Source of the DNA: a virus
Length of the DNA stretch: 39,996 nucleotides
Direction: 5' to 3' (one strand)
IMG/VR virus record: IMGVR_UViG_3300025298_000065
Location: 1-39,996 of that record
Below the pieces are notes generated by a model that made no database searches, was not told the origin of the DNA, and saw only the letters and a program-made list of their open reading frames with translations. Positions 1,132 to 38,271 of this stretch are shown here, one piece after another. The translations under genes were made by a program, and so were the position numbers. Every line of letters starts with the position of its first letter. Position 1 is the first letter of the stretch.

Positions 1132-1137
1132 ACCATA

Positions 1138-2232: not shown

Positions 2233-2239
2233 CGCCGCA

Positions 2240-2683
2240 ATGAAAAGAATCATCGAATACAGACGGCTTTTGGGTGTTGGCGCATCGGCCGATTTAAAAG
2301 AGCTGAAGACCGTTTACCGGAATTTCATGAAAGACTGGCATCCGGATAAATTTCAATCGGACGAGGAGAAAGCTGCCGCCGAAGAAAAAAGCAAAGCTTT
2401 TATTGAGGCCTATCATTTTTTAGTAAGCATCGCCCCCGAAACCCAGGCGCAGAAGCTTGAAGAGTATACCGCGGTGATCACGACTTCAAAAATAACCGAC
2501 TTTCAATATAAGGGGCAGACCCTGCAGGTCTATTTTGCCGATGGTGCTGCTTTTGAATACTTCGGGGTTCCCCGCAATATCTATCTGAAATTTGTGAACG
2601 CCGACTCTCCCGATCGTTTTGCCAGAAGACACATCTACCAGGCTTTCATCTACCGAAAGGTGACCAAGGCCGTTGAGGCTTGA
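2240..2683 (+). CDS. J-domain protein with C-terminal KTSC domain
   Basis: A 147-residue protein. Residues 1-65 form a DnaJ-type J domain with the diagnostic HPD tripeptide at residues 34-36 (DWHPDKF), which in the family stimulates the ATPase of an Hsp70 partner. Residues about 82-140 resemble a KTSC domain (LQVYFADGAAFEYFGVPRNIY, A.S...F...I...Y), a small module of unknown or nucleic-acid-related role. The start at 2240 gives a J domain of normal length; the ATG at 2219 would overlap the promoter box. It stands alone between a pseudogene and a long non-coding stretch. Confidence 0.75.
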   Translation: MKRIIEYRRLLGVGASADLKELKTVYRNFMKDWHPDKFQSDEEKAAAEEKSKAFIEAYHFLVSIAPETQAQKLEEYTAVITTSKITDFQYKGQTLQVYFADGAAFEYFGVPRNIYLKFVNADSPDRFARRHIYQAFIYRKVTKAVEA

Positions 2684-3504
2684 GTCCGGTTTCTCCGTGG
2701 AGATCCCCCATCGACCACTTCATTTCGTGAGGGCAAGACATGCGCCAACGCTTGGCCCAGCTTATAGGGACCGTTCCGTGGAGGTTTTGAGCCCCAAACA
2801 ACGGAACGACCAGATTGCGTCGCAGGCCTTTAACGCGCATTATACTCCCGTACGGCAGCTGTGGAAGTAGCGCACAAAAACGCAGGAAAAAATTATACCG
2901 AAACTTTTCCATGATCCCTCCTGGTCACCGAACAGTCGATGAAGCGCATGATGCTGACGTGAATTGACTTGAAATGGAGTTTAAATACAATAGTCGGTCC
3001 GGTGCAGCGATAAAAAACAACTGTCAACATATTTGTTGCTATCCCACTCGTTAACATGAGCGTATGGATCATTTGTGCCGTGTGCCTCTTAAAAAAAGTG
3101 TAGAACTTTTTTCGCTTGCGAAATATTATCCCCAAAATTTTTCTCAACAAAAGAAAATGGTACACGATCCGACGCCAGGATAACTCAAAACGCTTCAGCA
3201 GCGCTTTCGTTTTTCCATTATGCGTCATGTTCTTTTTTTCCGTCAAGCCACGCAAAGTGATTTTTCGATATGTTTTCTAATTTTTCGGGCGAAGAGTCGA
3301 TTAAGACGTTGGAGGTATAACAAATTTCTCATTGCTCCTTGAACCACCGGATAAATTCTTCCCTCTGGATGTTTTGATATACTAAGGTAAAGTTTAAAAT
3401 CCACCCTGATTTTTAAACAAAAGTGCGGGGAAAGTTACAAGTGTGCCAATTAACCATTATCAGATATGTTGGTTTATTTGCCAGTAAATCAAAAAAGCCC
3501 AAGC
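2684..3504. other. Long intergenic stretch without a convincing gene
   Basis: Frames here are short, lack family resemblance and have no clear start signals. I see no tRNA, insertion sequence or strong repeat. It presumably holds the promoter of the beta-helix gene, although no good TAnnTTTG box is evident. Confidence 0.4.
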
Positions 3505-6500
3505 ATGAGAAGAAGGATTCTAGGTTTGTTGATGGCCGTACTGCTATCTCCGATAGCGGTCATGGCCCAAAGCGGCTGCAAGTTCACCATTTCCACTTCC
3601 GCGACGGAGTGGCAATTTGATGGAGCAGCCAAAGGAGTGAAACCGGGTGACCGGATTTGTTTCAAAGGAGGAACCCGGACGGGTATTAAGCTTATCAATA
3701 TCCACGGTACGGCAGCACTGCCGGTTATTATTTCGAATGAGAGCAACAGCTCAGTCGTTATCAGCGCACCCGTGTCGTACGGAAACGTGGTTGAGGTCGA
3801 CAATGTGAGCTACGTGAAGTTCTCGGGGAGCAACAATCCGTCGGTCAAATATGGCATCGAGATCACCGGCGGGCAGATGGGGATCAACTTCCAGCAGTTG
3901 AGCTCCGATTTCGAAGTAGATCACCTCTACGTTCACAATACGGGTTGCGTCGGCATTGTAGCCAAGACCGACCCCACGTGCGACGCCTCCACCTGGAGAG
4001 GCCGTTTCACGATGAAGAACACATCATTTCACGACAACTTAGTCAGCAATACCGGATGCGAAGGATTTTACATAGGGAATTCACACTACGACTCGGGCGT
4101 AGGCATGACTTGTAACGGCACCAACCAAACCGTGTGGGAACACGATGTGGTGAACGTGAAGGTCTATAACAACACAGTACAAAACACCGCTAACGAAGGC
4201 ATCCAGGTCGGGTCGGCCATTTCGGGTTGTGAAGTGCACCACAACTCCATGACCAACTTCGGCACCAAGGCTGGCTATGGACAGGACAATGGTTTCCAGG
4301 CCGGCGGCGGCACCACACAGGCAAGAGTATACAGCAACGTCATCGATACAGGGAATGGCTATGCCGTCTGGGATTCCGGAGGGGGTGGTATCTATTTTAA
4401 CAACATTATCCGCAACGCCCTGATGGGAGGTTTCTCGCTAATAGACTATGCCGGCAATTATGCTCCGACCGGGTTCATGGTGATGAACAACACCATGGTG
4501 AACTGCTCACAATTCGATATCCTCATGTACAGCGAAGCCCCGGCCACGTCGCAGTTTGCCAACAACATCTTTGTGACGAATCAGGCCAGCGGCTACACCT
4601 ACATCAAATACAACGCTCCCAACGCACAGAAGCGCACAGTGGAATACAATAACCTGAAGACAAACAACATCGCCAGCGTGAAGTTTGCAAACGCGGCAGG
4701 CTTGGACTTTCACTTGTTGACGGGCTCACCGGCCATCAATGCGGGGATAGACTTGCTCTCCTTTGGCGTGAGTGTCGACAAGGATGGCAAGTTACGCATC
4801 GGGGCCTTTGACCAGGGTGCTTTTGAATTTGGAGGAGCAACCAATTCGGCGCCGGTGGTCAGTGCCGGCTCGGATAAAACCGTGACCCTGCCCACGTCCT
4901 CCACGACCATTACCGGAACAGCTTCCGATGCGGGAGGTTCCATTAGCAGCTACACCTGGACAAAAGTGTCCGGCGGCGCGGCTACGCTGACCAATGCAAG
5001 CACCGCCACCCTTAGCGTAAGCGGCCTGGTCGCCGGCACCTACGTCTTCCGCCTGACCGTGAAAGACAATGCCGGAGCCACCGCCAGCGACGATGTGACC
5101 GTGACGGTTAGCACGAACAAAGTGCCAACAGTAAGCGTAGGCACAACACTGAACATCGCCACGGCTACAACGTCGCTCACCGGCACGGCTTCTGACCCAG
5201 ACGGTACTATCGCCTCGTACACGTGGACAAAGGTATCCGGTGGCGCAGCCACGCTGACCAACGCCGGCGCCGCTACAGTCAGTCTTAGTGGACTGGTAAC
5301 CGGCACCTATGTATTCCGTCTCACCGTAAAAGACAATGGCGGTGCCACAGCCTACGCAGATAAGACGGTAATCGTTTTGATCGGTGGCACGAACGCAGCG
5401 CCAACGGTTAACGCGGGTGGCGCTAAAAACCTGGTGTTGCCCACCAATTCGGTTTCGCTGGTGGGTAGTGCGTCTGACAAGGACGGTACCGTCACATCAT
5501 ATACATGGTCCAAAGTTTCCGGAGGTAACTGTATGCTTTCCAACCCAACGTCGCCTACGGCCGTGGCAAGTGGCATGGCGGAAGGTTCTTATGTTTTCCG
5601 TTTGACGGTGAAAGATAATAAGGGCGCAGCGGCTAGCGCCGACGCCTCCGTGAGCGTTTCCAAAGGCGCTATCACGCGCTTCAGCTTCCGACCGGCAGCC
5701 GCCAGCATCAGCGGCTGGATCAGCGTGGCGGGTGCACCTCATGCCAGCGTGATCACGGCAACCGATCCGGCGACCAACGTCACCGTGAGCAGTGTGGCTA
5801 CCGGCCAGTGGAACCCGGCCAACTACGGCTCACCGATCAGTTCCTATGCCGGTGGCGTGAGCAACGGCACCGTTCAACCGGCAGCCGTCGTACAGAACAA
5901 CTGGTTCAACTACAACGCGGCGTATGGCACCACCGTTAACGGCGTGTTACAAGGCGACAACCTGAAACTGACCCGGCTCAATCCTACCCACCGGTACACC
6001 CTCCAAATGGGTGCTTCGCGTGCTGCCGGCAATGGTTCGCCCGATCAATATGGCGCCTTCGAATACCGCATCGGCGGTGTCGTGAAGACGTTGACCGTTA
6101 CCAATAATGCCAGCGTGCAAGTGGAATACGCCGGGGTTGCTCCGAACGCCAACGGCGAGATCGGCATCAGCGCACGCAAGATGGTCGGCAGCGCGATGAA
6201 CTTTGGCTATGTCGGCTGGGTCGTGGTCATCGACCTGACACAAGAACAATCGCTTACTGCCAAGGGCATCACGGTCGCCCGCGCGATCGACGTAGACCTC
6301 GCCTCCACGGCGCCAACGGACAATACTGCAGTTGACTCGACAACCACGGTCACCACGCCTTCGGAAGCTGACTTTGTGTTCCTGGACAATCGTTATCCCG
6401 GTGGCTATGACTACACCGTCGCGATCTTCGACGGCTCCGGTCGCCGCATATACCAGGGGCAGTGGAGCCCGGAGATGCACACGCAGACCTTTACACCCGG

Positions 6501-6573
6501 TGAATTGTATATCTACCACGTTCTCCAGAACGGCAAGAAGATAGACACGGGTAAGACGGTCGTGCAACAATAG
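3505..6573 (+). CDS. Secreted right-handed beta-helix protein with three PKD-like domains
   Basis: 1022 residues from the ATG at 3505; an in-frame ATG at 3466 is less likely because the later start puts a signal peptide (RRR, hydrophobic core, cleavage near AVMAQ, residues 1-22) at the N-terminus. Residues about 23-440 show asparagine-rich beta-helix coils (NNTMVN, NNIFVTNQ, GIEITGG) as in pectate-lyase-like folds. Residues about 447-718 hold three 90-residue PKD/REJ-like repeats sharing SYTWTKVSGG and GTYVFRLTVKDN. A beta-rich region (719-925) and a C-terminal segment (GYDYTVAIFDGSGRRIYQG) follow; the latter may be an atypical T9SS sorting domain. Likely a surface or secreted polysaccharide-binding or -degrading protein. 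No catalytic residues can be assigned. Confidence 0.85.
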   Translation: MRRRILGLLMAVLLSPIAVMAQSGCKFTISTSATEWQFDGAAKGVKPGDRICFKGGTRTGIKLINIHGTAALPVIISNESNSSVVISAPVSYGNVVEVDNVSYVKFSGSNNPSVKYGIEITGGQMGINFQQLSSDFEVDHLYVHNTGCVGIVAKTDPTCDASTWRGRFTMKNTSFHDNLVSNTGCEGFYIGNSHYDSGVGMTCNGTNQTVWEHDVVNVKVYNNTVQNTANEGIQVGSAISGCEVHHNSMTNFGTKAGYGQDNGFQAGGGTTQARVYSNVIDTGNGYAVWDSGGGGIYFNNIIRNALMGGFSLIDYAGNYAPTGFMVMNNTMVNCSQFDILMYSEAPATSQFANNIFVTNQASGYTYIKYNAPNAQKRTVEYNNLKTNNIASVKFANAAGLDFHLLTGSPAINAGIDLLSFGVSVDKDGKLRIGAFDQGAFEFGGATNSAPVVSAGSDKTVTLPTSSTTITGTASDAGGSISSYTWTKVSGGAATLTNASTATLSVSGLVAGTYVFRLTVKDNAGATASDDVTVTVSTNKVPTVSVGTTLNIATATTSLTGTASDPDGTIASYTWTKVSGGAATLTNAGAATVSLSGLVTGTYVFRLTVKDNGGATAYADKTVIVLIGGTNAAPTVNAGGAKNLVLPTNSVSLVGSASDKDGTVTSYTWSKVSGGNCMLSNPTSPTAVASGMAEGSYVFRLTVKDNKGAAASADASVSVSKGAITRFSFRPAAASISGWISVAGAPHASVITATDPATNVTVSSVATGQWNPANYGSPISSYAGGVSNGTVQPAAVVQNNWFNYNAAYGTTVNGVLQGDNLKLTRLNPTHRYTLQMGASRAAGNGSPDQYGAFEYRIGGVVKTLTVTNNASVQVEYAGVAPNANGEIGISARKMVGSAMNFGYVGWVVVIDLTQEQSLTAKGITVARAIDVDLASTAPTDNTAVDSTTTVTTPSEADFVFLDNRYPGGYDYTVAIFDGSGRRIYQGQWSPEMHTQTFTPGELYIYHVLQNGKKIDTGKTVVQQ

Positions 6574-6610
6574 TACAGTCCGCCCCAGGATTGGGGTGCT
6601 CAATAAACAT

Positions 6611-6650
6611 GAGGCATCGTGAACGTCGCCACCGGCTTTCGCGATGCCTC
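6611..6650 (+). terminator. Hairpin after the beta-helix gene
   Basis: Arms GAGGCATCG (6611-6619) and CGATGCCTC (6642-6650) form a perfect 9-bp stem 38 bases after the stop codon. The following T run is weak, so termination is inferred from position. Confidence 0.45.
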
Positions 6651-6768
6651 ACGTATTTGTAACGTGCTTGATACTGATGGGGAAAAACATCCCCGGCTCA
6701 CCCATAAAATGGTGCGTTGCTCCCCATCGTTCTTGCGGGGAGCCGTGTTGAGAAAATTTCAAAAACCT

Positions 6769-6996
6769 TTAATCGCTAACTTCTGCGAGATATTTCATGG
6801 CCAACTCCTGGTAGTGCAATGAAAGCGTTCGCCCAGGATGCCCGGGGTCAATTTCAGTCAGTTTCCAAGGGTCATCCCCCCAAATCTCCTCTGCATCACT
6901 CAATCTTCGGCCTACTTCAAAAAGCCGATCCGTCGCGATTTCTTTAAGCACCATCCCTTTGTTGATGGTAACTTCCGATGTGATTGGCGTAAACAT
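6769..6996 (-). CDS. Small protein of unknown function
   Basis: A 75-residue acidic, soluble-looking protein (MFTPITSEVTINKGMVLKEI...). It lies 34 bases downstream of the truncated receiver gene on the same strand and may share its transcript. I recognise no domain. The sequence has the balanced composition of a real protein, with charged residues and tryptophans in EIWGDDPWKLTEIDPG, but the evidence is thin. Confidence 0.4.
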   Translation of the reverse strand: MFTPITSEVTINKGMVLKEIATDRLFEVGRRLSDAEEIWGDDPWKLTEIDPGHPGRTLSLHYQELAMKYLAEVSD

Positions 6997-7030
6997 ATTT
7001 ATTTCGTTATGAGGTTATGCCTGTATAGAC

Positions 7031-7261
7031 TCAAATGGCATACCAAGCTTGCTTCATTCGGATTTCCTTCAACACTTCCTCGTCGTTCATCTTGGGCATA
7101 TTGCAGTCCACAAAAATAAAATCTACGGACTCCCTTCGCGTCCAGAGGAAGTGGAGCGCATCTAATGGATATGAAAAATTGAAACAAGCAGCGTCTGTAA
7201 ATGACTCGATTACGTCTTGTAGTGTGTCTTTATCGTCATCGATTAGAACGGCCGTTTTCAT
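7031..7261 (-). CDS. Truncated response-regulator receiver domain
   Basis: 76 residues matching the first half of a CheY-like receiver: AVLIDDDKDT with the acidic pair at residues 8-10, then VDFIFVDCNMPKM with the phospho-accepting aspartate near residue 52. Complete receivers have about 120 residues; the conserved Thr/Ser and Lys of the second half are missing, and no other frame downstream supplies them. It is therefore probably a non-functional remnant, although a short variant cannot be excluded. Confidence 0.55.
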   Translation of the reverse strand: MKTAVLIDDDKDTLQDVIESFTDAACFNFSYPLDALHFLWTRRESVDFIFVDCNMPKMNDEEVLKEIRMKQAWYAI

Positions 7262-7461
7262 GATGAAATTTAATAATGAGAGTAATTTTTGTAAAGAGGG
7301 ACTGGGTTTGTCTGGTGGGTATGCGTGGGGTTTCTTGAGATGTTGTTCTGGTGTTCGGTTGGTTCTTTATTTATATTTTATAGCGATTGATTTACAGGTC
7401 GTTACATGGAGGGTAGGAAGGGCGGGATTACCTGCGGTGATCCCGGTTTGGGCGTGGGCTT

Positions 7462-7592
7462 CAATCCCATAAATGCCCCGTTCGCTGCGCTCACTATATT
7501 TTGTTTAAAGAGGCTTTGCTCAAGTGAGGCACTCGGGCAAAGCCCTTTAAACAAAAATGCCCTCCTTTGGAGGGCGGGCATTTATGGGATTG
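7462..7592. repeat. Nested palindromic structure next to the tRNA-Ser end
   Basis: Outer arms of 17 bases (7462-7478, CAATCCCATAAATGCCC; 7576-7592, its reverse complement) enclose a second stem. That stem has TTTTGTTTAAAG (7499-7510) and GGCTTTGC (7512-7519) pairing with GCAAAGCC (7537-7544) and CTTTAAACAAAA (7545-7556), with one bulged base. A small stem AGTG/CACT sits at the tip. The right outer arm runs into the last bases of the tRNA. Confidence 0.7.
7551..7575 (-). terminator. Rho-independent terminator of the tRNA-Ser
   Basis: On the minus strand GCCCTCC, loop AAA, GGAGGGC is followed by ATTTTTG. It lies 16 bases beyond the CCA end of the tRNA fragment, where a tRNA terminator is expected, and so marks this side as the original chromosome. 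Confidence 0.7.
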
Positions 7593-7637
7593 GCGGAGAG
7601 GGCGGGATTCGAACCCGCGATACCCTTTCGAGTATAC
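7591..7637 (-). other. Attachment site: 3' fragment of tRNA-Ser
   Basis: Read on the minus strand this holds a long variable arm (stem ATACTC/GGGTAT around a GAAA loop), a perfect T arm (GCGGG, loop TTCGAAT, CCCGC) and the acceptor end CCTCTCCGCCA. A long variable arm with this acceptor is typical of tRNA-Ser. The anticodon arm, D arm and 5' acceptor strand are absent; the sequence beyond 7640 does not fold as a tRNA. This is the usual scar of integration into a tRNA 3' end. A complete tRNA-Ser with the same core, in the same orientation, is expected at the other end of the element. Confidence 0.8.
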
Positions 7638-7668
7638 ACACTTTTTAGCGTTTCTGGGCGCTTTTGTT

Positions 7669-7719
7669 GCTACCCTAACTTAGGGTAGCAGAAAAAATTA
7701 CCCTAGATTGCTACCCTAA
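7669..7719. repeat. GCTACCCTAA repeats, possible integrase arm-binding sites
   Basis: GCTACCCTAA (7669-7678) and TTAGGGTAGC (7680-7689) form a perfect palindrome about a single C. A third copy is at 7710-7719 and a degenerate copy TTACCCTAGA at 7698-7707. They lie between the attachment core and the integrase start, the usual place for arm-type sites of tyrosine recombinases. Confidence 0.55.
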
Positions 7720-7746
7720 AGGGCAGCAAAGTTATCCACATTCCGT

Positions 7747-9510
7747 ATGGGTTCGAATGATAAACTGAAAACCACCGTAGCGTTTGCACTAAAGACGCAA
7801 GTAAGCACCGACAACACCCGTCACGTTTTTGCATTCGTCCGGGCATACAAGTTCAAAAAACTGGTGTCCGAATTTAAGGTCTACGTTGCTGATGGCGATT
7901 CCCCTCTCCTACTGACCAAATCCCAATTGACCAAAAGTACCATCATCGACCACCCTAATTCAATCCGCCTGAACCAACTATTGGCAGGCATCACAGAAAC
8001 GATTAGGGCGACCGTGGACGAACTTTTAAAGAATGCCCATACATTGGAACCCGATATTGTTAGGACTGCTGTAAAGTCCTATACGAAGCGTTTCAATAGC
8101 GATTACCTTGCCTTCCTCAAAAGGGAAATTGTTACCATCACCAACGGCAACATTACCCGGTTTGATAGTCTACAGGTAGACAAAGACGTTCTTACCAAGA
8201 TTAAGAACAATCCCCCGTTGGACGAAACCGGGCAACCGGTTACGGGTGATGATATGGAAGACGTCTTGAACACCGAACAGGTAGAATATCAAAAGACCAT
8301 AGACGCACAGAAGATCAAGAAAATGAAAACCGAGGAAATCTATCGGTTGGGGCTTTGGAATAAGGCCAACATTTTCGAAATGTTTGCCAGCATCTACTTC
8401 GATCAATCTTGCCCGGCTACATATCAAAAAATTGTCCTGCGGTTGTTGGAGTACAGGGAGCACAAAAAGCCAAAGGAAGATGTTAAGCATCTAAACACAC
8501 AATGGCTGGTAGATTTCTTCAACTTCCTGAATGAAACGGGATTTTACGTTATCAACACCAGCAACCTAGACCCCCTTCGTTATGATCGGAAGATTTTCTT
8601 TCAAGATAAAAAAGAAGAGAACCCCAAGGAAAGAAAGCCATACGAACCAAAGTCACTGAATAAGATGATTGGAATTGTAAAAACCCTTATCGCTGGCAAA
8701 GACAAATTCACATTTTACAAAAAGGGTTACATTCCAAAACTTGATTTATCTGAATTGAACTTAGCTGCCATCACTGACAAAAAAGATGTTGACGGCACCA
8801 GAATAGAACACAACTTAGTGAAGAGCGAAGTTGACGAAATCTATCATTTCAAATTTACCAAGACTTCGTTAGACGAATATCAGGAGATATTCAACACCGT
8901 GAATAAATCCAAGAATGTCCCAATAACTATTGAAGATTTGGAAACAGCACGGCAACTGTTCATTCTTCAAATTTTCTTTGGTGGGTTACGTGGCTTCATT
9001 GAACTATCCACAGCCAAACTTTTGAAGCACGGCAAAGAACACGTGGTGACGTTTTACCAAAACAAGGTAACAAACACAGTGACCAATCCATTGAACGCCT
9101 ACACCGAGGCAATACTAAAACCATTGAATTACAAGATACCAGTATTGACCAGATACAACGCACAGGAAACCAAAAAACAGGTTACCAATATCAACTTGCT
9201 TGAAAGTCATTACAGATCATTGCTAAAAACCATTGGACACATTGTAAATCTTGACAGAGATGTTTTAACGGACAAAGTGAAGTTCCTTCATCAACCAATA
9301 AAAGAAATCTTCAACCCATACTTTAGCCGCAAGACATTCGGAACAATCTGTTTCTCGGACCTTGGTTTGAATGATTCCGAAATTTCCCTATTTACGGGGC
9401 ACAAAGACAGGAACAAAACAGAACTTAGTTCGTCATACATCCAAAAGGATACGATTAAGGATAAGAAGAAACTACTTGAGAAATTAAAGATAGGAAAGGC
9501 ACCCAAGTAA
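7747..9510 (+). CDS. int: Tyrosine-family site-specific integrase
   Basis: 587 residues. The C-terminal catalytic domain carries Arg415 (GGLRGFIELS), a likely Lys440 in the beta hairpin, Arg528 in YFSRKTFGT, His552 in TGHKDR and the nucleophile Tyr564 in SSYIQ. The histidine that usually precedes the second arginine (HxxR) is replaced, the motif reading YFSR. A long N-terminal part (1-390) would contain arm-binding and core-binding domains. It catalyses recombination between phage and bacterial attachment sites. The gene sits about 110 bases inside the tRNA-Ser scar, and the start at 7747 is the first ATG after the repeat sites. Confidence 0.9.
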   Translation: MGSNDKLKTTVAFALKTQVSTDNTRHVFAFVRAYKFKKLVSEFKVYVADGDSPLLLTKSQLTKSTIIDHPNSIRLNQLLAGITETIRATVDELLKNAHTLEPDIVRTAVKSYTKRFNSDYLAFLKREIVTITNGNITRFDSLQVDKDVLTKIKNNPPLDETGQPVTGDDMEDVLNTEQVEYQKTIDAQKIKKMKTEEIYRLGLWNKANIFEMFASIYFDQSCPATYQKIVLRLLEYREHKKPKEDVKHLNTQWLVDFFNFLNETGFYVINTSNLDPLRYDRKIFFQDKKEENPKERKPYEPKSLNKMIGIVKTLIAGKDKFTFYKKGYIPKLDLSELNLAAITDKKDVDGTRIEHNLVKSEVDEIYHFKFTKTSLDEYQEIFNTVNKSKNVPITIEDLETARQLFILQIFFGGLRGFIELSTAKLLKHGKEHVVTFYQNKVTNTVTNPLNAYTEAILKPLNYKIPVLTRYNAQETKKQVTNINLLESHYRSLLKTIGHIVNLDRDVLTDKVKFLHQPIKEIFNPYFSRKTFGTICFSDLGLNDSEISLFTGHKDRNKTELSSSYIQKDTIKDKKKLLEKLKIGKAPK

Positions 9511-9933: not shown

Positions 9934-10085
9934 TATATAAGTAGACCGTTGGCAGTTGGTGCCGCTAGGTCACATAGCAGGTTGGCAAACCAATTTCACC
10001 CTGCTTGCAAAATCCATTGTCTGCCCCCGCAAAGGGCAGTTGGTAGACGGATACACTCCAGCCGGGACGGTATCCGTTTTTTTTA
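9934..10085 (+). ncRNA. Candidate structured RNA with terminator
   Basis: No convincing protein fits here. Three hairpins occur in series. First, AGCAGG (9976-9981) pairs with CCTGCT (10000-10005), with an inner TTGG/CCAA stem. Second, CTGCCC (10021-10026) pairs with GGGCAG (10034-10039). Third, ACGGATAC (10047-10054) pairs with GTATCCGT (10070-10077) and runs into eight Ts (10077-10084). GGCAGTTGGT occurs twice, at 9951-9960 and 10035-10044. The last hairpin is a good plus-strand terminator. The 5' end is a guess, and I match no known RNA family. It could instead be the leader or terminator of neighbouring genes. Confidence 0.4.
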
Positions 10086-16966: not shown

Positions 16967-16976
16967 TATATAAGTA
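16967..16976 (-). promoter_or_regulatory. Late motif copy 1 (TACTTATATA)
   Basis: TACTTATATA on the minus strand, continuing TACTATATGG into the start codon at 16960. It lies between a strong terminator (16998-17028) and the next gene, the best positional case for this motif starting a new transcript. Confidence 0.5.
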
Positions 16977-19664: not shown

Positions 19665-19674
19665 TAAATAAGTA
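19665..19674 (-). promoter_or_regulatory. Late motif copy 2 (TACTTATTTA)
   Basis: TACTTATTTA on the minus strand, preceded by GG and lying 10 bases before the ATG of the protease-scaffold gene. Confidence 0.45.
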
Positions 19675-19716: not shown

Positions 19717-19726
19717 TATATAAGTA
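19717..19726 (-). promoter_or_regulatory. Late motif copy 3 (TACTTATATA)
   Basis: A second motif in the same 97-base gap between the tape measure and protease genes, 62 bases before the protease start. Tandem copies ahead of the capsid unit would fit strong expression. Confidence 0.45.
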
Positions 19727-27617: not shown

Positions 27618-28434
27618 AACTTAAATAAGTATGACCTTGCGTTTAGGGATGCTATTTGCCTTGGGATTTTATGATTTTGTCCGTATGCTTTTTCAACCAG
27701 CTTTTGAACTTCTGAATCCAATTCTGCTTTTCTGTTTTTGAGGTTAAGCCAATGCAATACGATTTCCAACTTCTCCTTAAGAATCGAATGTATACGCGTA
27801 ATGTCGCCATCAGCAAGCGAGTAAATATGCCCCCACCAACTGGTTTCTTTCCCATATCTATTATATGCGTCATCGACTCCATCAACTGGTGATTTGACGC
27901 CTTTAGAAGATCGTGGTAATTGATTGAAAACAATCTTAAACTGTGCAAAAAAAAAGCATTCACTCTACTTGCTATGGAAATTGGCAATTCCAAAAAGTGG
28001 CTTGCACGTTCCTCAACATCAAAATCGGAAAGGCTTTCGCCATATTTTTTACACATAATGGCAACTACGTATGGTAGTGCTTTGTATGGTTGGGATTTAA
28101 AATTATCCTGAGTTGTTTGCAGGCTCACGTAGTCCTGAAATTCTCCTTTCAATAGGCTTTGAACAACATCGTATGTCTCTCCTTTGTATTCAAATTGTGC
28201 AATGGGGTCTGTCGGCAACGGCTCGCTGAAGAATGTCAGACGTTCAAGAATGGATTTCACGTCCTTTATATTCATCTTCTTTACTTCATCAAAAGGGATG
28301 TTGCAATATCCAGCAATGAAAGCAATTGATTTAAGGTCAGGATTTTCTTCTGAAAGCCTTTCAACTTCCATTTGTTGTCTTATAGTAATTTGGTCCCAAC
28401 TGGTGGGGATTGAAATATTCGAAAGTGTACCCAT
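27614..28434 (-). CDS. Tail assembly chaperone, -1 frameshift product
   Basis: Reading 162 codons from 28434 and slipping back one base on the nine-T run (27947-27955) gives a 273-residue protein. The new frame is open for 111 codons and looks like real protein: FAQFKIVFNQLP, DDAYNRYGKETSWWGHIYSLADG, ITRIHSILKEKLEIVLHWLN. WGHIYSLA.GD....D/I.....L..VL..L recalls the T part of G/GT-type chaperones. The frame stops at a TGA that overlaps the next gene's start (ATGA), a strong sign that this is the genuine 3' end. The N-terminal part is shared with the 260-residue frame-0 product. A homopolymer undercount of one T would give the same protein without slippage. Confidence 0.7.
27622..27631 (-). promoter_or_regulatory. 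Late motif copy 4 (TACTTATTTA)
   Basis: TACTTATTTA on the minus strand, four bases before the ATG at 27617. It also lies inside the last codons of the frameshifted chaperone frame, so it is the copy most likely to be coincidental. Confidence 0.35.
27652..28434 (-). CDS. Tail assembly chaperone, frame-0 product
   Basis: 260 residues without frameshift. Residues 1-162 (SWDQITIRQQMEVERLSEENPD; FFSEPLPTDPIAQFEYKGETYDV; LPYVVAIMCKKYGE) have the look of the N-terminal tail assembly chaperone domain that binds the tape measure. The 98 residues after the T run are strongly basic (RLLMATLRVYIRFLRRSWKS, KKHTDKIIKSQGK) and less protein-like than the alternative frame, so they may be an incidental open frame. 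The start follows a late-motif copy by six bases. The gene is separated from the large terminase by three opposite-strand genes. Confidence 0.6.
   Translation of the reverse strand: MGTLSNISIPTSWDQITIRQQMEVERLSEENPDLKSIAFIAGYCNIPFDEVKKMNIKDVKSILERLTFFSEPLPTDPIAQFEYKGETYDVVQSLLKGEFQDYVSLQTTQDNFKSQPYKALPYVVAIMCKKYGESLSDFDVEERASHFLELPISIASRVNAFFLHSLRLFSINYHDLLKASNHQLMESMTHIIDMGKKPVGGGIFTRLLMATLRVYIRFLRRSWKSYCIGLTSKTEKQNWIQKFKSWLKKHTDKIIKSQGK
27947..27957 (-). other. Slippery run for -1 frameshifting
   Basis: Minus strand GC followed by nine Ts and GC. In frame 0 it reads GCT TTT TTT TTG, so T TTT TTT allows tandem -1 slippage. The -1 frame continues for 111 codons to a TGA coupled to the next gene. 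Confidence 0.65.
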
Positions 28435-28440
28435 ATAGAA

Positions 28441-28450
28441 TAAATAAGTA
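28441..28450 (-). promoter_or_regulatory. Late motif copy 5 (TACTTATTTA)
   Basis: TACTTATTTA on the minus strand, followed by TTCTATATGG into the chaperone start at 28434. This extended match to copy 1 includes CTATATGG. It would restart late transcription after the inserted plus-strand genes. Confidence 0.5.
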
Positions 28451-30308: not shown

Positions 30309-31751
30309 CTATATATACCAACGGAGTGTTCCCCGATTGGAAAGTAACTGATTAACTGTATAAACCAACGTATCAACTATCCCATCGTGCTTTGCCATAG
30401 GGAACGTAGATACTTGTTCTAGGAATCCATCATTCCAATTTCCCCTAACCAGTTTCACACGTCCCGGTTCCAGTATTGGAGTTATGGCGGTGGTTCGAGA
30501 AACTTTAGAATCTTTCGGTGCTGGCAGTTCCAATACATTCAACAACGTTTCTCGTTTCAAGCTGGCAACAACGTCTTTACCATTGGACTTGGGTTCTATG
30601 TAAACTTTACCCTTAGCATCGGCAACTTTCTGAATCAGGCGCAAGAGGTCCGGAAATTCCAACCAGACTTCAATACAATCCTTTATAAAAACCTGATTTT
30701 CTTTAGTACCCGCGATAAGTATGGTGGTTGGATCATTGTTCTTAACATCGGTGGTTTGGGCAGTGTCAATGAACAAATGATAGGGAATATCATTAGGACA
30801 AGCGTCAACAAACTTAAACCAATCCTTTTTAAGTATGCCCCCACCGATTGGAGAGGGTTTCATTAGATATTGGCAGGCGAATACATAATCTGAACCAGTG
30901 AGGTCTGGGAAACTGTCCACGGGGAACCGGCTGTTCCACAGCACCCCGTTCTTATAGTTAACAGCCAATTCCTTTGGCTCAACATCCGTGGTTAGTTCAA
31001 TTGGGAGAACGATGTTCTTATACTTATTTCGACCATCATTTGCACGCAAGTAACCGCTTAAGTCATTCTCGTGAACACGTTGACCAATGATTACCCTTAA
31101 ATCAATGCTTGGGTTGTTAAGCCTGTTGTAAATCGTTTCTCGATATTTACGGTTGGCGTTCTCAAGATTGATTTCAGAAACGTTGTTTGCGTCAATGCTG
31201 TCATCGATCACAATCACATTTGCACCAAAGCCCGTGATGCTGGCACCCATAGAAGTTGAGACACGAGCACCACCAAACGTATTTTTGAAATTGGATTTGG
31301 CTTGGGTGTCTTGTCTGATTTGGATGTTGGGGAATAGTTCTCTATACCAATCCGATTCTAAAAGGTCCTTAGTCTTGGATGCCAGTTCCACGGCCAACCC
31401 TTCACTGTGGGAAATCATCAGGAACGACATATAGGGATTTATACAACCCCACGTCCAAGCATTAAGGCAGACAGAAACAATAAGACTTTTTGAAGTTCTT
31501 GGTGGAACGTTTATGTTTAAATCTTGGGTCTTGGGCTTCTTATCGGTGATCCGTATGATTTCCCTTTGTAACTCGCTGGTTATATAGTCGTGGTGCCAAT
31601 TCCAATCCCAAGTATTGGAGGGTTCCAGCACCTTTGCCGCGTCTTGAACGAAATCAAAAAATGATGCCTTGTATAGTTGTCGGTATAGTTCTAATTGTGT
31701 CTGCTTGGAAAGGGCTTCACGATTAGCTTTAAGTTTTTCTTTAGTTGTCAA
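30309..31751 (-). CDS. terL: Terminase large subunit
   Basis: 480 residues. The ATPase domain has WNWHHDYITSEL, a Walker A-like NVPPRTSKS (residues 81-89), SFLMISHSEGLA, and Walker B VIVIDD (179-184). The nuclease domain has FIDTAQTTDVKNNDPTT (Asp329) and a C-terminal KHDGIVDTLVYTVNQL with further acidic residues. It packages phage DNA into the head. The only in-frame start is TTG at 31751; an ATG eight bases upstream reads ATG GAT TTT TGA and would be in frame with one more T. A late-motif copy lies about 40 bases upstream, inside the divergent moron gene. Confidence 0.9.
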   Translation of the reverse strand: MTTKEKLKANREALSKQTQLELYRQLYKASFFDFVQDAAKVLEPSNTWDWNWHHDYITSELQREIIRITDKKPKTQDLNINVPPRTSKSLIVSVCLNAWTWGCINPYMSFLMISHSEGLAVELASKTKDLLESDWYRELFPNIQIRQDTQAKSNFKNTFGGARVSTSMGASITGFGANVIVIDDSIDANNVSEINLENANRKYRETIYNRLNNPSIDLRVIIGQRVHENDLSGYLRANDGRNKYKNIVLPIELTTDVEPKELAVNYKNGVLWNSRFPVDSFPDLTGSDYVFACQYLMKPSPIGGGILKKDWFKFVDACPNDIPYHLFIDTAQTTDVKNNDPTTILIAGTKENQVFIKDCIEVWLEFPDLLRLIQKVADAKGKVYIEPKSNGKDVVASLKRETLLNVLELPAPKDSKVSRTTAITPILEPGRVKLVRGNWNDGFLEQVSTFPMAKHDGIVDTLVYTVNQLLSNRGTLRWYI

Positions 31752-31787: not shown

Positions 31788-32477
31788 ATGTATATAAGTA
31801 CCATTCTACTGATTGAGTCACCAGCACCAACTATAGTGGCACCCGAAAACTCAAGTTGGTTCACACCACCAGTAATAGCGGCGTTAGTTTCTTCTGGAAT
31901 CGCGGCACTTTTAGGTGGTTTTGTGGGAGCTTACTTGAAGGAATATTATTCAGAAACCTTTTTGAAAAAGAGACGATTGAGGGAAATCCGGGTTGCCATC
32001 AATTTAAATGCTGCTGCATTGTTCAGGGCAGTCAGACCCTACTTAACGAATGGCAACGTTGCCAAATTTTTCAAAACACTGATGGACATTGTTGAACCAG
32101 ACGATACAGAAGAGTCTATTGTAGCAAATAAACTTGCATTCGGCGAACCACTTGTCAAATTACAACCAACTGTGGATGCCCAATACAAAATCTTGAGTGA
32201 CTACGAATCACAATTGATTTCACTTGCATATGAATGTGAGGCATATTTGCCACTCAAAGACTACCAACAATTGGTAAAATTCATCAAACAGATTACTAAC
32301 CTAACGAAACGAGACTTTTATGCACTCGATTATCGCGGTATGACTAGAGATCAAGTGTTAAGAGAGTTTGAAAGTAAGAGTGAATCAGCCGTTGTAAAAA
32401 AAATAGAGGAACTAGATAAGGAGTATGATAAAGTTGCCGAACAAATCAACAACATCCTGAAAGTCAAAAAGAAATAA
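31788..32477 (+). CDS. Membrane-anchored helical protein, moron paralogue A
   Basis: 229 residues from the ATG at 31788; the start is fixed by alignment with paralogue B, which shares ILL near the start. Residues 29-50 form a glycine-rich membrane helix (VIAALVSSGIAALLGGFVGAYL), followed by KEYYSETFLKKRRLREI (51-67) and a helical domain with SDYESQLISLAYECEAYLPLKDY. The glycine pattern suggests helix packing, perhaps oligomers. The gene diverges from the large terminase and its first codons overlap a late-motif copy on the other strand. Function unknown; exclusion or defence is inferred. Confidence 0.7.
   Translation: MYISTILLIESPAPTIVAPENSSWFTPPVIAALVSSGIAALLGGFVGAYLKEYYSETFLKKRRLREIRVAINLNAAALFRAVRPYLTNGNVAKFFKTLMDIVEPDDTEESIVANKLAFGEPLVKLQPTVDAQYKILSDYESQLISLAYECEAYLPLKDYQQLVKFIKQITNLTKRDFYALDYRGMTRDQVLREFESKSESAVVKKIEELDKEYDKVAEQINNILKVKKK
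31791..31800 (-). promoter_or_regulatory. Late motif copy 6 (TACTTATATA)
   Basis: TACTTATATA preceded by GG on the minus strand, 39 bases before the terminase start. It lies within codons 2-5 of the divergent moron gene, so late transcription would begin inside that gene. Confidence 0.45.
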
Positions 32478-33152: not shown

Positions 33153-33176
33153 ATTGACACTTTCAAGTAAGTCATT

Positions 33177-33197
33177 TTATAAATTTTTATAATTTTT
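33177..33197 (+). terminator. AT-rich terminator-like repeat after moron B
   Basis: TTATAAA (33177-33183) and TTTATAA (33186-33192) form a weak palindrome followed by a T run, 25 bases after the stop. Confidence 0.3.
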
Positions 33198-33317
33198 GAT
33201 TTTGAATTTTTTATATAGACGTGACAGAGGGACAGGCGAACAACCTTTTTTTTCAAGTCGGGGGGAATTCCAAAAGCGAAATCTTCTTTGGCATTTGCCA
33301 CTATGGCACACGTTGCG

Positions 33318-33333
33318 AATCTTAGTTAAGATT
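33318..33333. promoter_or_regulatory. Operator-like palindrome, copy 1
   Basis: AATCTTAGTTAAGATT, a 16-base palindrome with 7-base arms. The same site (reverse complement) abuts the start of the small terminase gene at 34155-34170. Both copies are followed by GTCAC and a GCCAAACA/TGTTTGGC element. Confidence 0.5.
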
Positions 33334-33360
33334 TCTATCTTATGTCACCATACAGTTTCA

Positions 33361-33382
33361 GCCAAACAAGATTCTGTTTGGC
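33361..33382. repeat. Perfect hairpin GCCAAACA/TGTTTGGC
   Basis: Arms GCCAAACA (33361-33368) and TGTTTGGC (33375-33382) flank AGATTC. One arm, TTGTTTGGC, recurs at 34184-34192 beyond the second operator-like palindrome. No T run follows, so it is more likely a protein-binding or packaging element than a terminator. Confidence 0.5.
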
Positions 33383-33513
33383 AACAGCAAAAGGCGATTG
33401 CGAGATTTTCAAGGAAATAGCCAGAACGTTGCAACCAAGGGGGTAACACCCCACAGTTTTATAATTAGCACTATGTTAAGTAGGCGTGTAACTCACTGAC
33501 AACTAGCAACAGG

Positions 33514-33576
33514 ACGTTTTTGCCATTTTCACAAATCACCCCAAACTGATAGTTCATCTAACGTTTTGCCATTTTC
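33514..33576. repeat. Direct repeats ACGTTTTGCCATTTTC
   Basis: ACGTTTTTGCCATTTTC at 33514-33530 and ACGTTTTGCCATTTTC at 33561-33576, one base different in length, start to start 47 bases apart. Confidence 0.5.
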
Positions 33577-33674
33577 GTTGCGAATTTCATAATGTGTTTT
33601 TGATTTTCAATTATGAAAATCACAATTGCCATCATCAGAACAGACCCCCAGATTTACTCCCCTCATTCGCAATT

Positions 33675-34154
33675 TTATTCTGGGTTTGGGTTTAGATCAA
33701 TGATAGCTTCTTTACCTAACAGTTCCCGGATTTCATCCACCGACATTGCAGGTAGGTTAAGGTTGTTGGTTTGTGACAACGTCACGTTGCCAACGCTTGC
33801 CTTATCCTTATGAAGCTTATATAAGTCCTCTAAGCCCTTCAACGCCATCAATGCACTTCTCCTATCCCCTACTTCAATGGACTGTTTATAGATGAAATCA
33901 TAGCGTAAACTATGGCGTTCTATAATAGCCTGTTGTTCGTACTGCCCTTGCTTTGCCAACTCCTGATTAACCCACGTTACATCAGCTTCAAAACTCTTTT
34001 CACCAACGTTGTATTCATTCACATACCATTCCCTGATTTCATAGGGGTAAAATCCAGCAGCATATCTATCTAAGACGGCTAGACGTCTTTTATGCACTGG
34101 ACGATCTGAATTCACTTTCAGTAGTGGTGCAGTTGCACCCGTAGTATTTTCCAT
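33675..34154 (-). CDS. terS: Terminase small subunit, putative
   Basis: 159 residues. The N-terminal part is basic and helical (RRLAVLDRYAAGFYPYEIREWYVNEY, VTWVNQELAKQ) and could form the DNA-binding HTH. A middle helical section (RSALMALKGLEDLYKLHKDK) would form the oligomer core, and the C-terminal tail is acidic (ELLGKEAIIDLNPNPE). It lies first in the late region, upstream of the large terminase, but separated from it by moron genes and a repeat-rich region. An operator-like palindrome touches its start codon, implying repression or autoregulation. Confidence 0.6.
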   Translation of the reverse strand: MENTTGATAPLLKVNSDRPVHKRRLAVLDRYAAGFYPYEIREWYVNEYNVGEKSFEADVTWVNQELAKQGQYEQQAIIERHSLRYDFIYKQSIEVGDRRSALMALKGLEDLYKLHKDKASVGNVTLSQTNNLNLPAMSVDEIRELLGKEAIIDLNPNPE

Positions 34155-34365: not shown

Positions 34366-34527
34366 TCATTCTTCTCCCGCGTTCGCTTTCAGAACCTTTT
34401 CAATCATCGCTTCTATTTCGGCAATGCTCATACCTATACTATCCTTGCCATAGTTAAGGCGTTGTCGTATCTGACTTAGGTTTTCTTCAATTGCTTTTTG
34501 TAAGTCTGCTTTTATCTTATCCTTCAT
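34366..34527 (-). CDS. Small helical protein at the end of the middle operon
   Basis: 53 residues, MKDKIKADLQKAIEENLSQI then RQRLNYGKDSIGMS and a helix ending NAGEE; charged and helical. The ATG overlaps the end of the preceding gene by 11 bases (GAT ATG AAG GAT AA pattern), indicating translational coupling, which is the main reason to accept such a short gene. It may act with its neighbour. No family recognised. Confidence 0.5.
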   Translation of the reverse strand: MKDKIKADLQKAIEENLSQIRQRLNYGKDSIGMSIAEIEAMIEKVLKANAGEE

Positions 34528-34981
34528 ATCCTAAAATTGTTCTTCTCATCAAAATAATATTTGCGTTCTCATTTCCACTGATGATGGCATACGCCCTTCT
34601 GATCCGTTCTAAATCATTATGACCATCGTATATCTCCTGTTTAACTGTCAGTGCAAAACGTTTATCTTTTTCTTCCTTCGTTAGATTTTCGGGTTCGGTT
34701 TTCTTAGTAAACTTCCCGGTTTGCTGATCTTTTATTGGATGTTTGTTCATAAGTATTTCTGCATTCTCATTTAATTCTTCTGATGCTGGTAATGGTTGAA
34801 AAGTGTTTTCTGTATCCATACTGGCAATTTTAGCTTTGATTTTGTTGTACACGGTTCCTGCATCGCAGTCACACGTTGGCGCGGGTCTTCCAAACAGTTC
34901 CTTGAAAATCCTCCTGTATTGTGTGAAGGAATCTTTTGTAAATGACTTTGCCATTAGTTCTTTATCAAAATCGGTTATCAT
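34517..34981 (-). CDS. Phage protein of unknown function
   Basis: 154 residues, charged and helical. N-terminal MITDFDKELMAKSFTKDSF, a CDCD cluster near residue 38, a polar linker (DQQTGKFTKKTEPENLTKEEKDKR) and a helical C-terminus. The start overlaps the stop of the sigma-like gene by an ATGA, so it is translated with it. A partner or antagonist of the sigma-like factor is possible but unproven. Confidence 0.5.
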   Translation of the reverse strand: MITDFDKELMAKSFTKDSFTQYRRIFKELFGRPAPTCDCDAGTVYNKIKAKIASMDTENTFQPLPASEELNENAEILMNKHPIKDQQTGKFTKKTEPENLTKEEKDKRFALTVKQEIYDGHNDLERIRRAYAIISGNENANIILMRRTILGYEG

Positions 34982-35745
34982 AGTTGTCTTGTGAATTGTT
35001 TGATTTCGTGGGCTTTGAAATTGCCCATAAGCTGTTCAATACATTTTTCTCTAACGCCCCTTTCGTTTTCCAATAGATATATTCCTTTCTTGGGTATCAC
35101 CGTTTGATTGAAGATGTTTCTCACGTTTAGTTTGTTTGAAATCTGGTATAGTGGATAATTGTTGACGTCTCGCCAAATCTCTTTTGACTCTTGGTGGATG
35201 ATGTATTTGATTAGGTTTCTTTTTACATCCTGTTTCATTTTGCTTAGGATGTTTTTCACACTGGACATTGTTACACCTGCTTGCGTCTGGACTATCTTCC
35301 TATAGGTGTTGTTCTCAGTAGTGTAATAGACTTTGAACAGTGTTGCGTGTTTGGCTGGGTAAAATCTTTCGAGGTATTGAAATAGGTATTTTGTTACTAA
35401 TTCCGTTTCGAAATGATGATGTTGGCTGTTGTGGTCATTCGCCTTCATCATCTGTTCGACTTCCCACTGATAGTCATCAGCACTTACAAAATGTCTTTTA
35501 GTACATTTACGTTCCTCTCTGTGGAAGTCGTGTTTTACGCTTTGTAGAATATATCCACCAAATTTGGTTGTGTCGGTGAACCCTGACTTTCTTATTCTTT
35601 CAATCGTTCTCTCAATTGCTCCATTCAATAGATCAACACTATGTTCTGAATGCTGGCAAATCGCATAAGATTTACGGACTAGTTCGGAATATTGATTACT
35701 TAGGAAGTGCCCAAATTGATTGCTTACCAACGTGTGACCTGACAT
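34978..35745 (-). CDS. Sigma-70-like factor fused to a NUMOD4-like module
   Basis: 255 residues. Residues about 15-80 resemble sigma region 2 (YSELVRKSYAIC; TTKFGGYILQSVKHDFHREERK). Residues 147-180 form a region 4-like HTH (TYRKIVQTQAGVTMSSVKNILSKM). Residues 188-245 resemble the NUMOD4 module of homing-type nucleases (EIWRDVNNYPLYQISNKLNVRNI...). I know of no standard sigma factor with this extra module. It sits in the middle operon ahead of the late region, where a late-transcription factor would be expected. Starts two bases after the preceding stop; its stop overlaps the next ATG. Confidence 0.55.
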   Translation of the reverse strand: MSGHTLVSNQFGHFLSNQYSELVRKSYAICQHSEHSVDLLNGAIERTIERIRKSGFTDTTKFGGYILQSVKHDFHREERKCTKRHFVSADDYQWEVEQMMKANDHNSQHHHFETELVTKYLFQYLERFYPAKHATLFKVYYTTENNTYRKIVQTQAGVTMSSVKNILSKMKQDVKRNLIKYIIHQESKEIWRDVNNYPLYQISNKLNVRNIFNQTVIPKKGIYLLENERGVREKCIEQLMGNFKAHEIKQFTRQL

Positions 35746-36131: not shown

Positions 36132-36520
36132 TACTTTTTTCTCAAAATCATCTTAAGTAATTCCCGATCCGTATAGACGTAATCAATCTTCTCATCTTCG
36201 GTAGGTAAGTCAAAGGTTGGCTTGCTTACGTTCTTATCTGGTATGATGGCATAACCCCAAAATCTTATTTTATGCGGGCTTAAGTCAGTTGCACCATTCA
36301 AAGCCAACATAGTCATATAATCGTGAAAATGACCCGGTGATGTTCTGATTATGTAATCTGTCCAAGTCTGATCCTTATTCCCACTATCGACTAGTTCTAC
36401 AAATCCCTTCATCGGGTATTCATAAGTTGGCTTTTCCTTTTCTTTATTCATATTTTTTCTTGTCTTGGGATGGTCGAAAATATCATCCATCCAATCAATC
36501 ATTAATTTTCTCAAGTTCAT
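36131..36520 (-). CDS. Phage protein of unknown function
   Basis: 129 residues from the ATG at 36520 (MNLRKLMIDWMDDIFDHP). ATGs at 36535 and 36502 are alternatives; the last leaves only an eight-base overlap with the upstream stop. Contains a polar N-terminus (PKTRKNMNKEKEKP) and a beta-rich core (PMKGFVELVDSG; DYIIRTSPGHFHDYMTMLALNGA; IRFWGYAIIPDKN). No family recognised. It is embedded in the overlapping middle operon. Confidence 0.5.
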   Translation of the reverse strand: MNLRKLMIDWMDDIFDHPKTRKNMNKEKEKPTYEYPMKGFVELVDSGNKDQTWTDYIIRTSPGHFHDYMTMLALNGATDLSPHKIRFWGYAIIPDKNVSKPTFDLPTEDEKIDYVYTDRELLKMILRKK

Positions 36521-37733
36521 TTTTTCTTTCTTCAATTTCTTCTGGGGTTAAGTATTTTGATTTCGGTCCACGATAAGGCTCCTTTTGATTTTGATATTCC
36601 GTATAGGCATCATAGATGTCTTCATCAGTCGCCAACTTCAGTGGCACCTTTAAATACTTATTTAGTATTCGAGTCGTGCTAACCTTATTCCTAAGGGCAA
36701 TGAAATCGTTTGGAATGACGTGTGATGCCCTAAGATCATTGATTACGTTTTTAATCTTAGCCGATGGTTCTAATCGTCTGCACAAAAAACCTAGAAAATA
36801 TTTATTCCCGTAGGTGTCATTTTCCAAAGCCGTTTCGATTATGTCAAGTACAGCCAACGTAAAATGAATCCTGTCTAAATGCTTTTTGTCAGCCTTGTCT
36901 TTTCTATACTTGTTTATCTTAGCTAAGAATTGACTCTTCAATTCCTTGATGTAAATACCATCATCGAAATAATTCTCTACCTGATCCACATCATACGTTT
37001 CCTCAAAGTCACTTGAAACAAACTCATATGGCGAATTATGTTTTACTCTATCCACGAAATACCATTTGAGCACGGTTTGGCAGTAACTATAGGTTCGACC
37101 GCGATCAGGTTGATAGTTCTTCAACGTCTCGGTAACTTTGGCTATGGCATCGTTCAAAAGGTCTTTGGTTGCCTTATAGCCGAATTGAATATTTCTGGCC
37201 GCAAAATATCTTCTCCAAATAATTTCACCCATCTCAAGTAACTTGGGATATATTTTTAGGTACACCCGTTCGGAACCTGTCCGATTAAACTCCATTATCC
37301 AATCGGCAACCTCTTCTTCCTGCCAGTAGTGGTTAACTGTTTTCGCCCTAATAGCTTTTATCTTGCTTGGTTTCTTGGGCTTTCTCGTTTCCTTTCGTTT
37401 ATAAAGACTTGGTGGAAGCTTCAACTTAAATCGTTGCAGCAAATACCGTGTTCTCGTTTCTGTGGCGTTGAGGATAGAACACAAATCGGAAAACGATGTT
37501 GCTTTACTCAACGCGAACACCACTACCTTCATATATTCATCCCCTAAACGATCTGTTGATTTTTTTTCAGAATCTTCATTTGCCTTTAGTCCATATTTTT
37601 TGATTGACTTTTGGACGTGCGAACGTGAAAGACTAAGTTCATTGGCAATTTGTACTATTGTCCTACCCTCGGCAATCAACTTCCCAAGCTCTTGTTTTCT
37701 GTCTACTACTGGCCTGCCCCTAACTTTACCCAC
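36495..37733 (-). CDS. Two-HTH protein with sigma-region-2-like segment, late-regulator candidate
   Basis: 412 residues. Residues 5-48 form a resolvase-type HTH (RGRPVVDRKQELGKLI; TIVQIANELSLSRSHVQKSI) and 66-105 a second one (FSDLCSILNATETRTRYLLQRF). Residues about 160-235 resemble region 2 of phage sigma factors: a long helix, then AIAKVTETLKNYQPDRGRTYSYCQTVLKWYFVDRV, like the KA-F-SY segment of T4-type late sigma factors. The start is a GTG overlapping the upstream stop. With the second sigma-like gene in the same operon, it is a good candidate reader of the recurrent late motif. Confidence 0.55.
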   Translation of the reverse strand: MGKVRGRPVVDRKQELGKLIAEGRTIVQIANELSLSRSHVQKSIKKYGLKANEDSEKKSTDRLGDEYMKVVVFALSKATSFSDLCSILNATETRTRYLLQRFKLKLPPSLYKRKETRKPKKPSKIKAIRAKTVNHYWQEEEVADWIMEFNRTGSERVYLKIYPKLLEMGEIIWRRYFAARNIQFGYKATKDLLNDAIAKVTETLKNYQPDRGRTYSYCQTVLKWYFVDRVKHNSPYEFVSSDFEETYDVDQVENYFDDGIYIKELKSQFLAKINKYRKDKADKKHLDRIHFTLAVLDIIETALENDTYGNKYFLGFLCRRLEPSAKIKNVINDLRASHVIPNDFIALRNKVSTTRILNKYLKVPLKLATDEDIYDAYTEYQNQKEPYRGPKSKYLTPEEIEERKNELEKIND

Positions 37734-38271
37734 GTTCCTCGAACAATTTTAAACTTCGGTTATTTCTTTCGTGAATGATGGCACGCACCTTTTCGATGTG
37801 TTGCATCAGTTGCCCGCTATTCGATCTCCGATAGATGTTATGGCGTGTTCCAATAATGAAATCAGCTTTATAGTAAGACAGTTCAGTTACTAGCTTTGTC
37901 TTCAAGTCCCTGTTTTCATAGGATGTTGGCAGAAGCATTTCTTTCCACACAGGGTCTTTGATTCCACGCATATCATAGATAAGAATTGCATTTTGATACT
38001 TAATGATGTAAAACCCGGTACCGCCAAATAAACGCGCACCATCCTTCAAGGCTTCATACTTGTCTTTTTCCAAAAACGTCGTATGTCTATGCGCCTCTAT
38101 GGGTGTATCTATTCTCTCTTTAAACTCGTAACAATGTTGTGTTCCAGCAGACACGAACATTCCATCCAACAGGCTATGTTCATTGTAGAACGGCGTATGA
38201 CGCGTAACACCATTAGTATGCATCCATTTCGCAAACAACATATTCAAAGCTGTCAATTCTCGATTACTCAT
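37726..38271 (-). CDS. PD-(D/E)XK nuclease-like protein
   Basis: 181 residues. HSLLDGMFVSAGTQHCYEFKERIDTP has the spacing of a PD-(D/E)XK nuclease core: acidic residue Asp36, then ExK at residues 49-51. It is followed by RHTTFLEKDKYEALKDGARLFGGTGFYIIKYQNAILIYDM, typical of the helix-strand after the active site. Cytoplasmic, possibly in phage recombination, host DNA attack or repair. First gene of the middle operon; its stop overlaps the GTG of the next gene. Confidence 0.5.
   Translation of the reverse strand: MSNRELTALNMLFAKWMHTNGVTRHTPFYNEHSLLDGMFVSAGTQHCYEFKERIDTPIEAHRHTTFLEKDKYEALKDGARLFGGTGFYIIKYQNAILIYDMRGIKDPVWKEMLLPTSYENRDLKTKLVTELSYYKADFIIGTRHNIYRRSNSGQLMQHIEKVRAIIHERNNRSLKLFEERG

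Follow-up and report, generated by a model that had tools for sequence, protein, structure and literature searches.

A divergent sigma-like phage protein with a partial NUMOD4 motif at its C-terminus, encoded in one operon with a second sigma-like protein in a virus very probably infecting Bacteroidota

In sigma-70 factors of the ECF type (group 4), region 2 (sigma2) is followed by region 4 (sigma4), and some ECF groups carry an extra C-terminal domain. The NUMOD4 module (PF07463) is usually located in HNH homing endonucleases such as I-HmuI (1u3e), where its core follows the pattern W-x-D-(I/V)...Y-Q-(I/V)-S-N. In phage T4, sigma functions are divided between two phage-encoded proteins, gp55 (sigma2) and gp33 (a sigma4 mimic), and late promoters consist of a lone -10-type element with no -35 (PMC2988020). 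Here we analyze a 39,996-base virus record (IMGVR_UViG_3300025298_000065), taken whole and referred to below as the window, in which elements resembling each of these systems occur together. One protein, T, resembles ECF factors in having sigma2- and then sigma4-like parts within ~187 aa, and differs from them in being very divergent (under every curated cut-off), phage-encoded, and extended by a tail that starts with a NUMOD4 core. This tail resembles the NUMOD4 of homing endonucleases in its core (19-25 bits), yet lacks the conserved Gly and the HNH nuclease, shows no recognizable later strands, and is placed C-terminally after a sigma-like region. As in T4, sigma functions appear to be split between phage-encoded proteins, since a second sigma-like protein, S, has a gp55-like sigma2; unlike in T4, sigma2 and sigma4 occur together in T, S has two N-terminal helix-turn-helix (HTH) domains, and the motif TACTTATWTA replaces TATAAATA (Table 1).

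The large terminase of this virus shares 30-38% identity with its counterparts in phages of Croceibacter, Cellulophaga and Chryseobacterium and in phage vB_RanS_PJN03, and by this protein its closest GenBank phages infect Bacteroidota, which very probably places the host in the Bacteroidota as well. Structural genes occupy the minus strand at 10.8-28.4 kb, with the large terminase gene at 30.3-31.8 kb. T and S are both encoded, S three genes upstream of T, in a short-spaced minus-strand operon that runs from 38271 down to 34366, upstream of the candidate small terminase and close to the terminase and structural genes that follow it. The reading frame that the initial annotation had assigned to T proved real (34978-35745, minus strand, ATG start, 255 aa), and it ends in an ATGA junction where its stop codon and the ATG of the following gene (34517-34981) overlap. 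In two IMG/VR contigs (L082 and L084), distant relatives of the first gene of the operon lie ~5 kb upstream of terL. Elsewhere in the window, the left arm (1-9510, plus strand) has a GC content of 0.487 vs. ~0.40 in the late region and includes a 1035-aa protein with PKD repeats, a plus-strand gene at 2219-2683 encodes a DnaJ domain fused to a KTSC domain, and the ~520 bases that separate the candidate small terminase from two plus-strand genes (33153-33675) hold no convincing gene.

Table 1. Positions in the window of the sigma-like genes, their domains, neighboring genes and candidate late promoters.
Feature	Coordinates	Strand	Basis
T, 255-aa sigma-like protein with NUMOD4-like tail	34978..35745	-	ORF, ATG start
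T residues 11-85, sigma region 2-like (HSVDLLNGAIERTIERI...KFGGYILQSVKHDFHREERK)	35491..35715	-	ECF HMM alignment; SigE family
T residues 120-179, sigma region 4-like HTH (NTYRKIVQTQAGVTMSSVKNILSKMKQDVKRNL)	35209..35388	-	ECF HMM alignment; PRK12526
T residues 189-213, NUMOD4 core	35107..35181	-	Pfam PF07463; home-made HMM vs. shuffles
T residues 214-255, C-terminal rest without supported homology or HNH motif	34981..35106	-	Profile comparison
S, 412-aa second sigma-like protein, same operon as T	36495..37733	-	TIGR02937; ECF match; gp55 model
S residues 11-112, two HTH domains	37398..37703	-	HTH_28 E=1.1e-4; AlphaFold2 helices
S residues 184-250, gp55-like sigma region 2	36984..37184	-	gp55 HMM
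First gene of the operon, 181 aa, no assigned function	37726..38271	-	ORF; distant relatives in IMG/VR
Gene after T, 154 aa, no assigned function	34517..34981	-	Start overlaps T stop (ATGA)
Candidate small terminase subunit	33675..34154	-	Position and weak similarity only
terL, large terminase subunit	30309..31751	-	PHROG 38 E=2e-73
TACTTATATA, candidate late promoter upstream of terL	31791..31800	-	Motif
TACTTATTTA, candidate late promoter, 6 nt before ATG 28434	28441..28450	-	Motif
TACTTATTTA, candidate late promoter, 4 nt before ATG 27617	27622..27631	-	Motif
TACTTATATA, candidate late promoter, one of two sites before 19654	19717..19726	-	Motif
TACTTATTTA, candidate late promoter, 10 nt before ATG 19654	19665..19674	-	Motif
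TACTTATATA, candidate late promoter, 6 nt before in-frame ATG 16960	16967..16976	-	Motif
TACTTATATA, same motif, no clear downstream gene	9934..9943	-	Motif

Broad evidence for a sigma ancestry of T comes from a model built from 20 Bacteroidota ECF sigma factors (including L173, the very sigma matched by T, which makes the comparison mildly circular). Residues 11-179 of T are collinear with positions 27-185 of this model, spanning sigma2 and sigma4, at 18.4 bits vs. 7.6 bits for the best of 1000 shuffles, and T and S rank first and second among the 424 frames of the window. In the NCBIfam library, weak matches to the SigE family (residues 9-85, E=0.067) and PRK12526 (residues 87-174, E=0.0037) fall in the right order for regions 2 and 4. 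A loosely set search of 395 Bacteroidota genomes gave T a single match at E<=1e-3, a genuine chromosomal ECF sigma factor whose alignment spans residues 6-192 of T (single-genome E=8e-4). With ~0.4 chance matches expected at this threshold over 395 genomes, the E-value alone means little, and the weight of the match lies, as far as sequence comparison goes, in the lone match being a sigma and being aligned across both domains. The region 2-like and region 4-like parts named in the initial annotation are thus best read as distant sigma-70 (ECF-type) kinship, and by profile evidence T is a sigma-70 relative, though it falls below the cut-offs of all curated sigma models in Pfam and NCBIfam (Sigma70_r2 and Sigma70_r4 of Pfam being silent, and the NCBIfam matches lying far under theirs). 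The similarity is faint, as no match to T was found in 397 further genomes of one family, and conserved sigma positions are partly eroded (region 2.2, DLLNGAIERTIERI, is without the Gln, and the Trp of region 2.4 is replaced by Tyr).

Full-length relatives of T were found neither by an exact-peptide scan of IMG/VR, nor by tblastn against GenBank phages, nor in scans of GTDB genomes, and no homologue carrying the NUMOD4 tail came out of the viral, phage or Bacteroidota genome searches; the 395 and 397 Bacteroidota genomes, together with 50 terminase-related records, gave just the ECF match and NUMOD4-only matches. AlphaFold2 run on the single sequence of T yielded no usable fold (pLDDT 36). A partial parallel is offered by G421, a 110-kb virus of the same terminase lineage (L248, 23506-23922; L243), which encodes an RpoD-like sigma and a 253-aa sigma (L248) with, like T, an ECF-like sigma4 and ~80 extra C-terminal residues; in contrast to T, its extension is not NUMOD4-like and its sigma2 is weaker.

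The second sigma-like protein leans toward a different model. Residues 186-297 of S match TIGR02937 (E=2.4e-4), and its sigma2 reaches 15.1 bits with an HMM of T4 gp55 (best of 1000 shuffles, 7.8), higher than the 8.8 bits obtained with the ECF model, so that S by profile comparison carries gp55-type sigma2 homology, of a distant kind only. At E<=1e-3, S matches just one protein in the 395 Bacteroidota genomes, again a real ECF sigma (L252), and the sigma2 of T aligns with S residues 191-252 at 30% identity, weak taken alone (E=0.12). As S independently finds an ECF sigma and shares the sigma2 similarity of T, the sigma2 reading of T is strengthened. S had no match in PHROG 234, and homologue searches in viral contigs, phages and Bacteroidota genomes returned only the ECF match. 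In the AlphaFold2 model of S, the HTH part alone is usable (residues 11-110 helical, block-mean pLDDT mostly 73-84 with a dip to 54-65 at residues 51-70), and a fold search with this part retrieved nothing at E<=0.001.

The tail of T had been annotated as a NUMOD4 module, and of this a statistically real core at residues 189-213 stands (residues 189-204 being EIWRDVNNYPLYQISN), while the rest of the module, its Gly and an HNH nuclease do not. The Pfam model (PF07463) gives E=1.1e-4 and 22.8 bits with whole T, just under its 23.4-bit gathering cut-off, and 25.3 bits with the C-terminal 76 aa alone. An independent model of 17 NUMOD4 sequences scores the tail at 19.4 bits vs. 10.8 for the best of 2000 shuffles, which makes the C-terminal match significant. 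A NUMOD4 alignment including the tail finds I-HmuI (1u3e) at 3e-26, a strength that comes from its other members. Only ~26 of 49 positions are backed, however, the conserved Gly is replaced, and the later beta strands and the vHrLVAxxF stretch are unrecognizable. A complete NUMOD4/I-HmuI module was rejected: its second half is unproven (nominal p=0.012 against I-HmuI alone), and the family profile gives it no support. No HNH motif follows the core, and T ends at residue 255. On sequence grounds, NUMOD4 membership holds for the core only, and T is not a homing endonuclease; the tail may recognize sequence. An aldolase match of the tail was set aside as chance (E=0.13-1.1).

NUMOD4 is present in 28 of 296 Bacteroidota genomes. 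In the 30 Bacteroidota loci fetched, the match sits near the protein N-terminus or is repeated after another NUMOD4, and none has a sigma-like domain beside it. Two of these proteins (L213 and L232, 383-389 aa) contain two NUMOD4 copies, the second cut to its first ~29-40 positions as in T, so that a NUMOD4 core alone can evidently persist. Many Bacteroidota chromosomes also encode a ~196-aa protein of conserved length combining NUMOD4, an HNH-like part and a C-terminal HTH (L214-L231), which may be a homing endonuclease domesticated for DNA binding. The combination of a sigma-like region with NUMOD4 was met nowhere else in our searches of sequences or of the open-access literature; the initial annotation had likewise known of no such case, and the open-access papers contained no description of a sigma factor joined to NUMOD4.

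We next consider the DNA that such factors could read. TACTTAT, the motif pointed to in the initial annotation, proved enriched, with 14 copies in the window vs. 4.5 expected (0 of 100 shuffles reach 14) and 12 on the minus strand vs. 2.2 expected. The extended form TACTTATWTA occurs seven times on the late-gene (minus) strand vs. 0.06 expected (at most three in 300 shuffles), an exact figure that is optimistic as the extension was picked after seeing the sites, the 7-base motif being that of the initial annotation. No -35 element is common to these sites, so that the sigma4 of T is unlikely to read a -35 there. In shape the sites would thereby fit T4 late promoters, which have a -10 element only. 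Four sites end 4-10 nt ahead of an ATG, and if the sites are -10 elements, late messages would possibly be leaderless or near-leaderless; in flavobacteria, such messages form a minority of 5.5% (PMC9723704). TACTTATWTA might alternatively be a translation-start signal, a possibility against which the spacing at 31800 and 19726 argues. The motif is unlike the -7 box of flavobacterial sigmaA (TAnnTTTG; PMC9723704), which was itself discarded as a late motif, its copies falling on both strands and seldom before genes. No conservation of TACTTATWTA was seen in related loci. Overall, it looks like a lone -10-type, strand-biased promoter-like element of the late strand. Given that the gp55-like S shares the operon and that the motif has the layout of gp55 promoters, T is not the sole candidate for its reader and may not be the best, S being the better candidate.

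Taken together, we consider it somewhat probable that T is a divergent phage sigma-70 family factor which acts on the host RNA polymerase, contacts DNA through its tail, and is made with S to redirect transcription to late genes. The sequence shows two distant sigma homologies, a NUMOD4 core, a single operon and a strand-specific motif before late genes; that T binds RNA polymerase, that the motif is used, when the factors act and what the tail does are what we infer. The predicted layout of T is ECF-like (sigma2, short linker, sigma4, with no sigma1.1 or sigma3), and its tail would start with a NUMOD4 core of homing-endonuclease origin, with no nuclease attached. T would be co-produced with S from one operon, both probably as middle-phase regulators, and would bind the host RNA polymerase and help redirect it to phage late genes. 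Most likely S would read the -10 element, as gp55 does, and T would either supply a second specificity or bridge to the beta flap. The tail could add a DNA contact, specific or not, which might make up for the degeneracy of the sigma domains or for the missing -35 box of the late promoters. It is tempting to go further and envision a two-protein late system that replaces the host sigma, with S melting and reading TACTTATWTA, T bridging to RNA polymerase and its captured NUMOD4 module making a sequence-specific contact in place of -35 recognition, though we judge this full version to be quite unlikely.

The division of labor could also differ. S alone may be the late sigma factor, its gp55-like sigma2 reading TACTTATWTA without a -35, with T, not promoter-specific itself, serving much as gp33 does, either as a sigma4-like coactivator or by competing with the host sigma. 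This is a tentative alternative, to which we give distinctly less than an even chance: S matches gp55 better than ECF (15.1 vs. 8.8 bits), the motif lacks a -35 like T4 late promoters (PMC2988020), and gp33 and gp55 have been described as the split sigma of T4, but T, unlike gp33, has a sigma2-like half of its own. Such a half also bears on whether T is a sigma factor at all, rather than a sigma4-like HTH late regulator of the ArpU/RinA sort. The position of T just upstream of the terminase genes would suit such a regulator, as would a sigma4-like protein ~3 kb upstream of terL in a prophage locus (L163) and the weak match of T region 4 alone to PHROG 633 'transcriptional regulator' (E=0.31). 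Yet the ECF alignment of T spans sigma2 too, S independently backs that sigma2, and no ArpU/RinA family model in Pfam, NCBIfam or PHROG matches T, which leaves this reading very improbable.

The tail, for its part, could be a relic, left when a homing endonuclease gene entered a sigma-like gene at its 3′ end, lost its nuclease and remained as a functionless read-through tail. That just the first ~26 NUMOD4 residues are recognizable, without the conserved Gly or an HNH part, in a motif otherwise typical of HNH homing endonucleases, would be consistent with such decay. However, GC and GC3 of the tail match those of its neighbors, which gives a recent insertion no compositional support, the overlapping ATGA junction is intact, and the tight operon with its ATGA overlap and uniform GC argues for a stable, expressed fusion. 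In other Bacteroidota proteins (L213 and L232) the ~30-residue core also stands alone, as a second copy inside the protein, and overall we see a relic as rather unlikely.

Returning to T as a phage sigma-70 family factor with a DNA-contacting tail, little was found in the open-access literature on how Bacteroidota phages take over host transcription, and in practice no curated model scores T or S well enough for standard annotation to pick them up. If our proposal is true, a sigma factor would have extended its promoter recognition in a new way, by recruiting a DNA-reading motif from selfish homing endonucleases, and if NUMOD4 replaces -35 reading, that motif would have been domesticated to give a sigma factor part of its promoter specificity. 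A phage that combines a pair of sigma-like proteins with a 10-bp late promoter of its own would then provide a compact, testable model of host transcription takeover in Bacteroidota.
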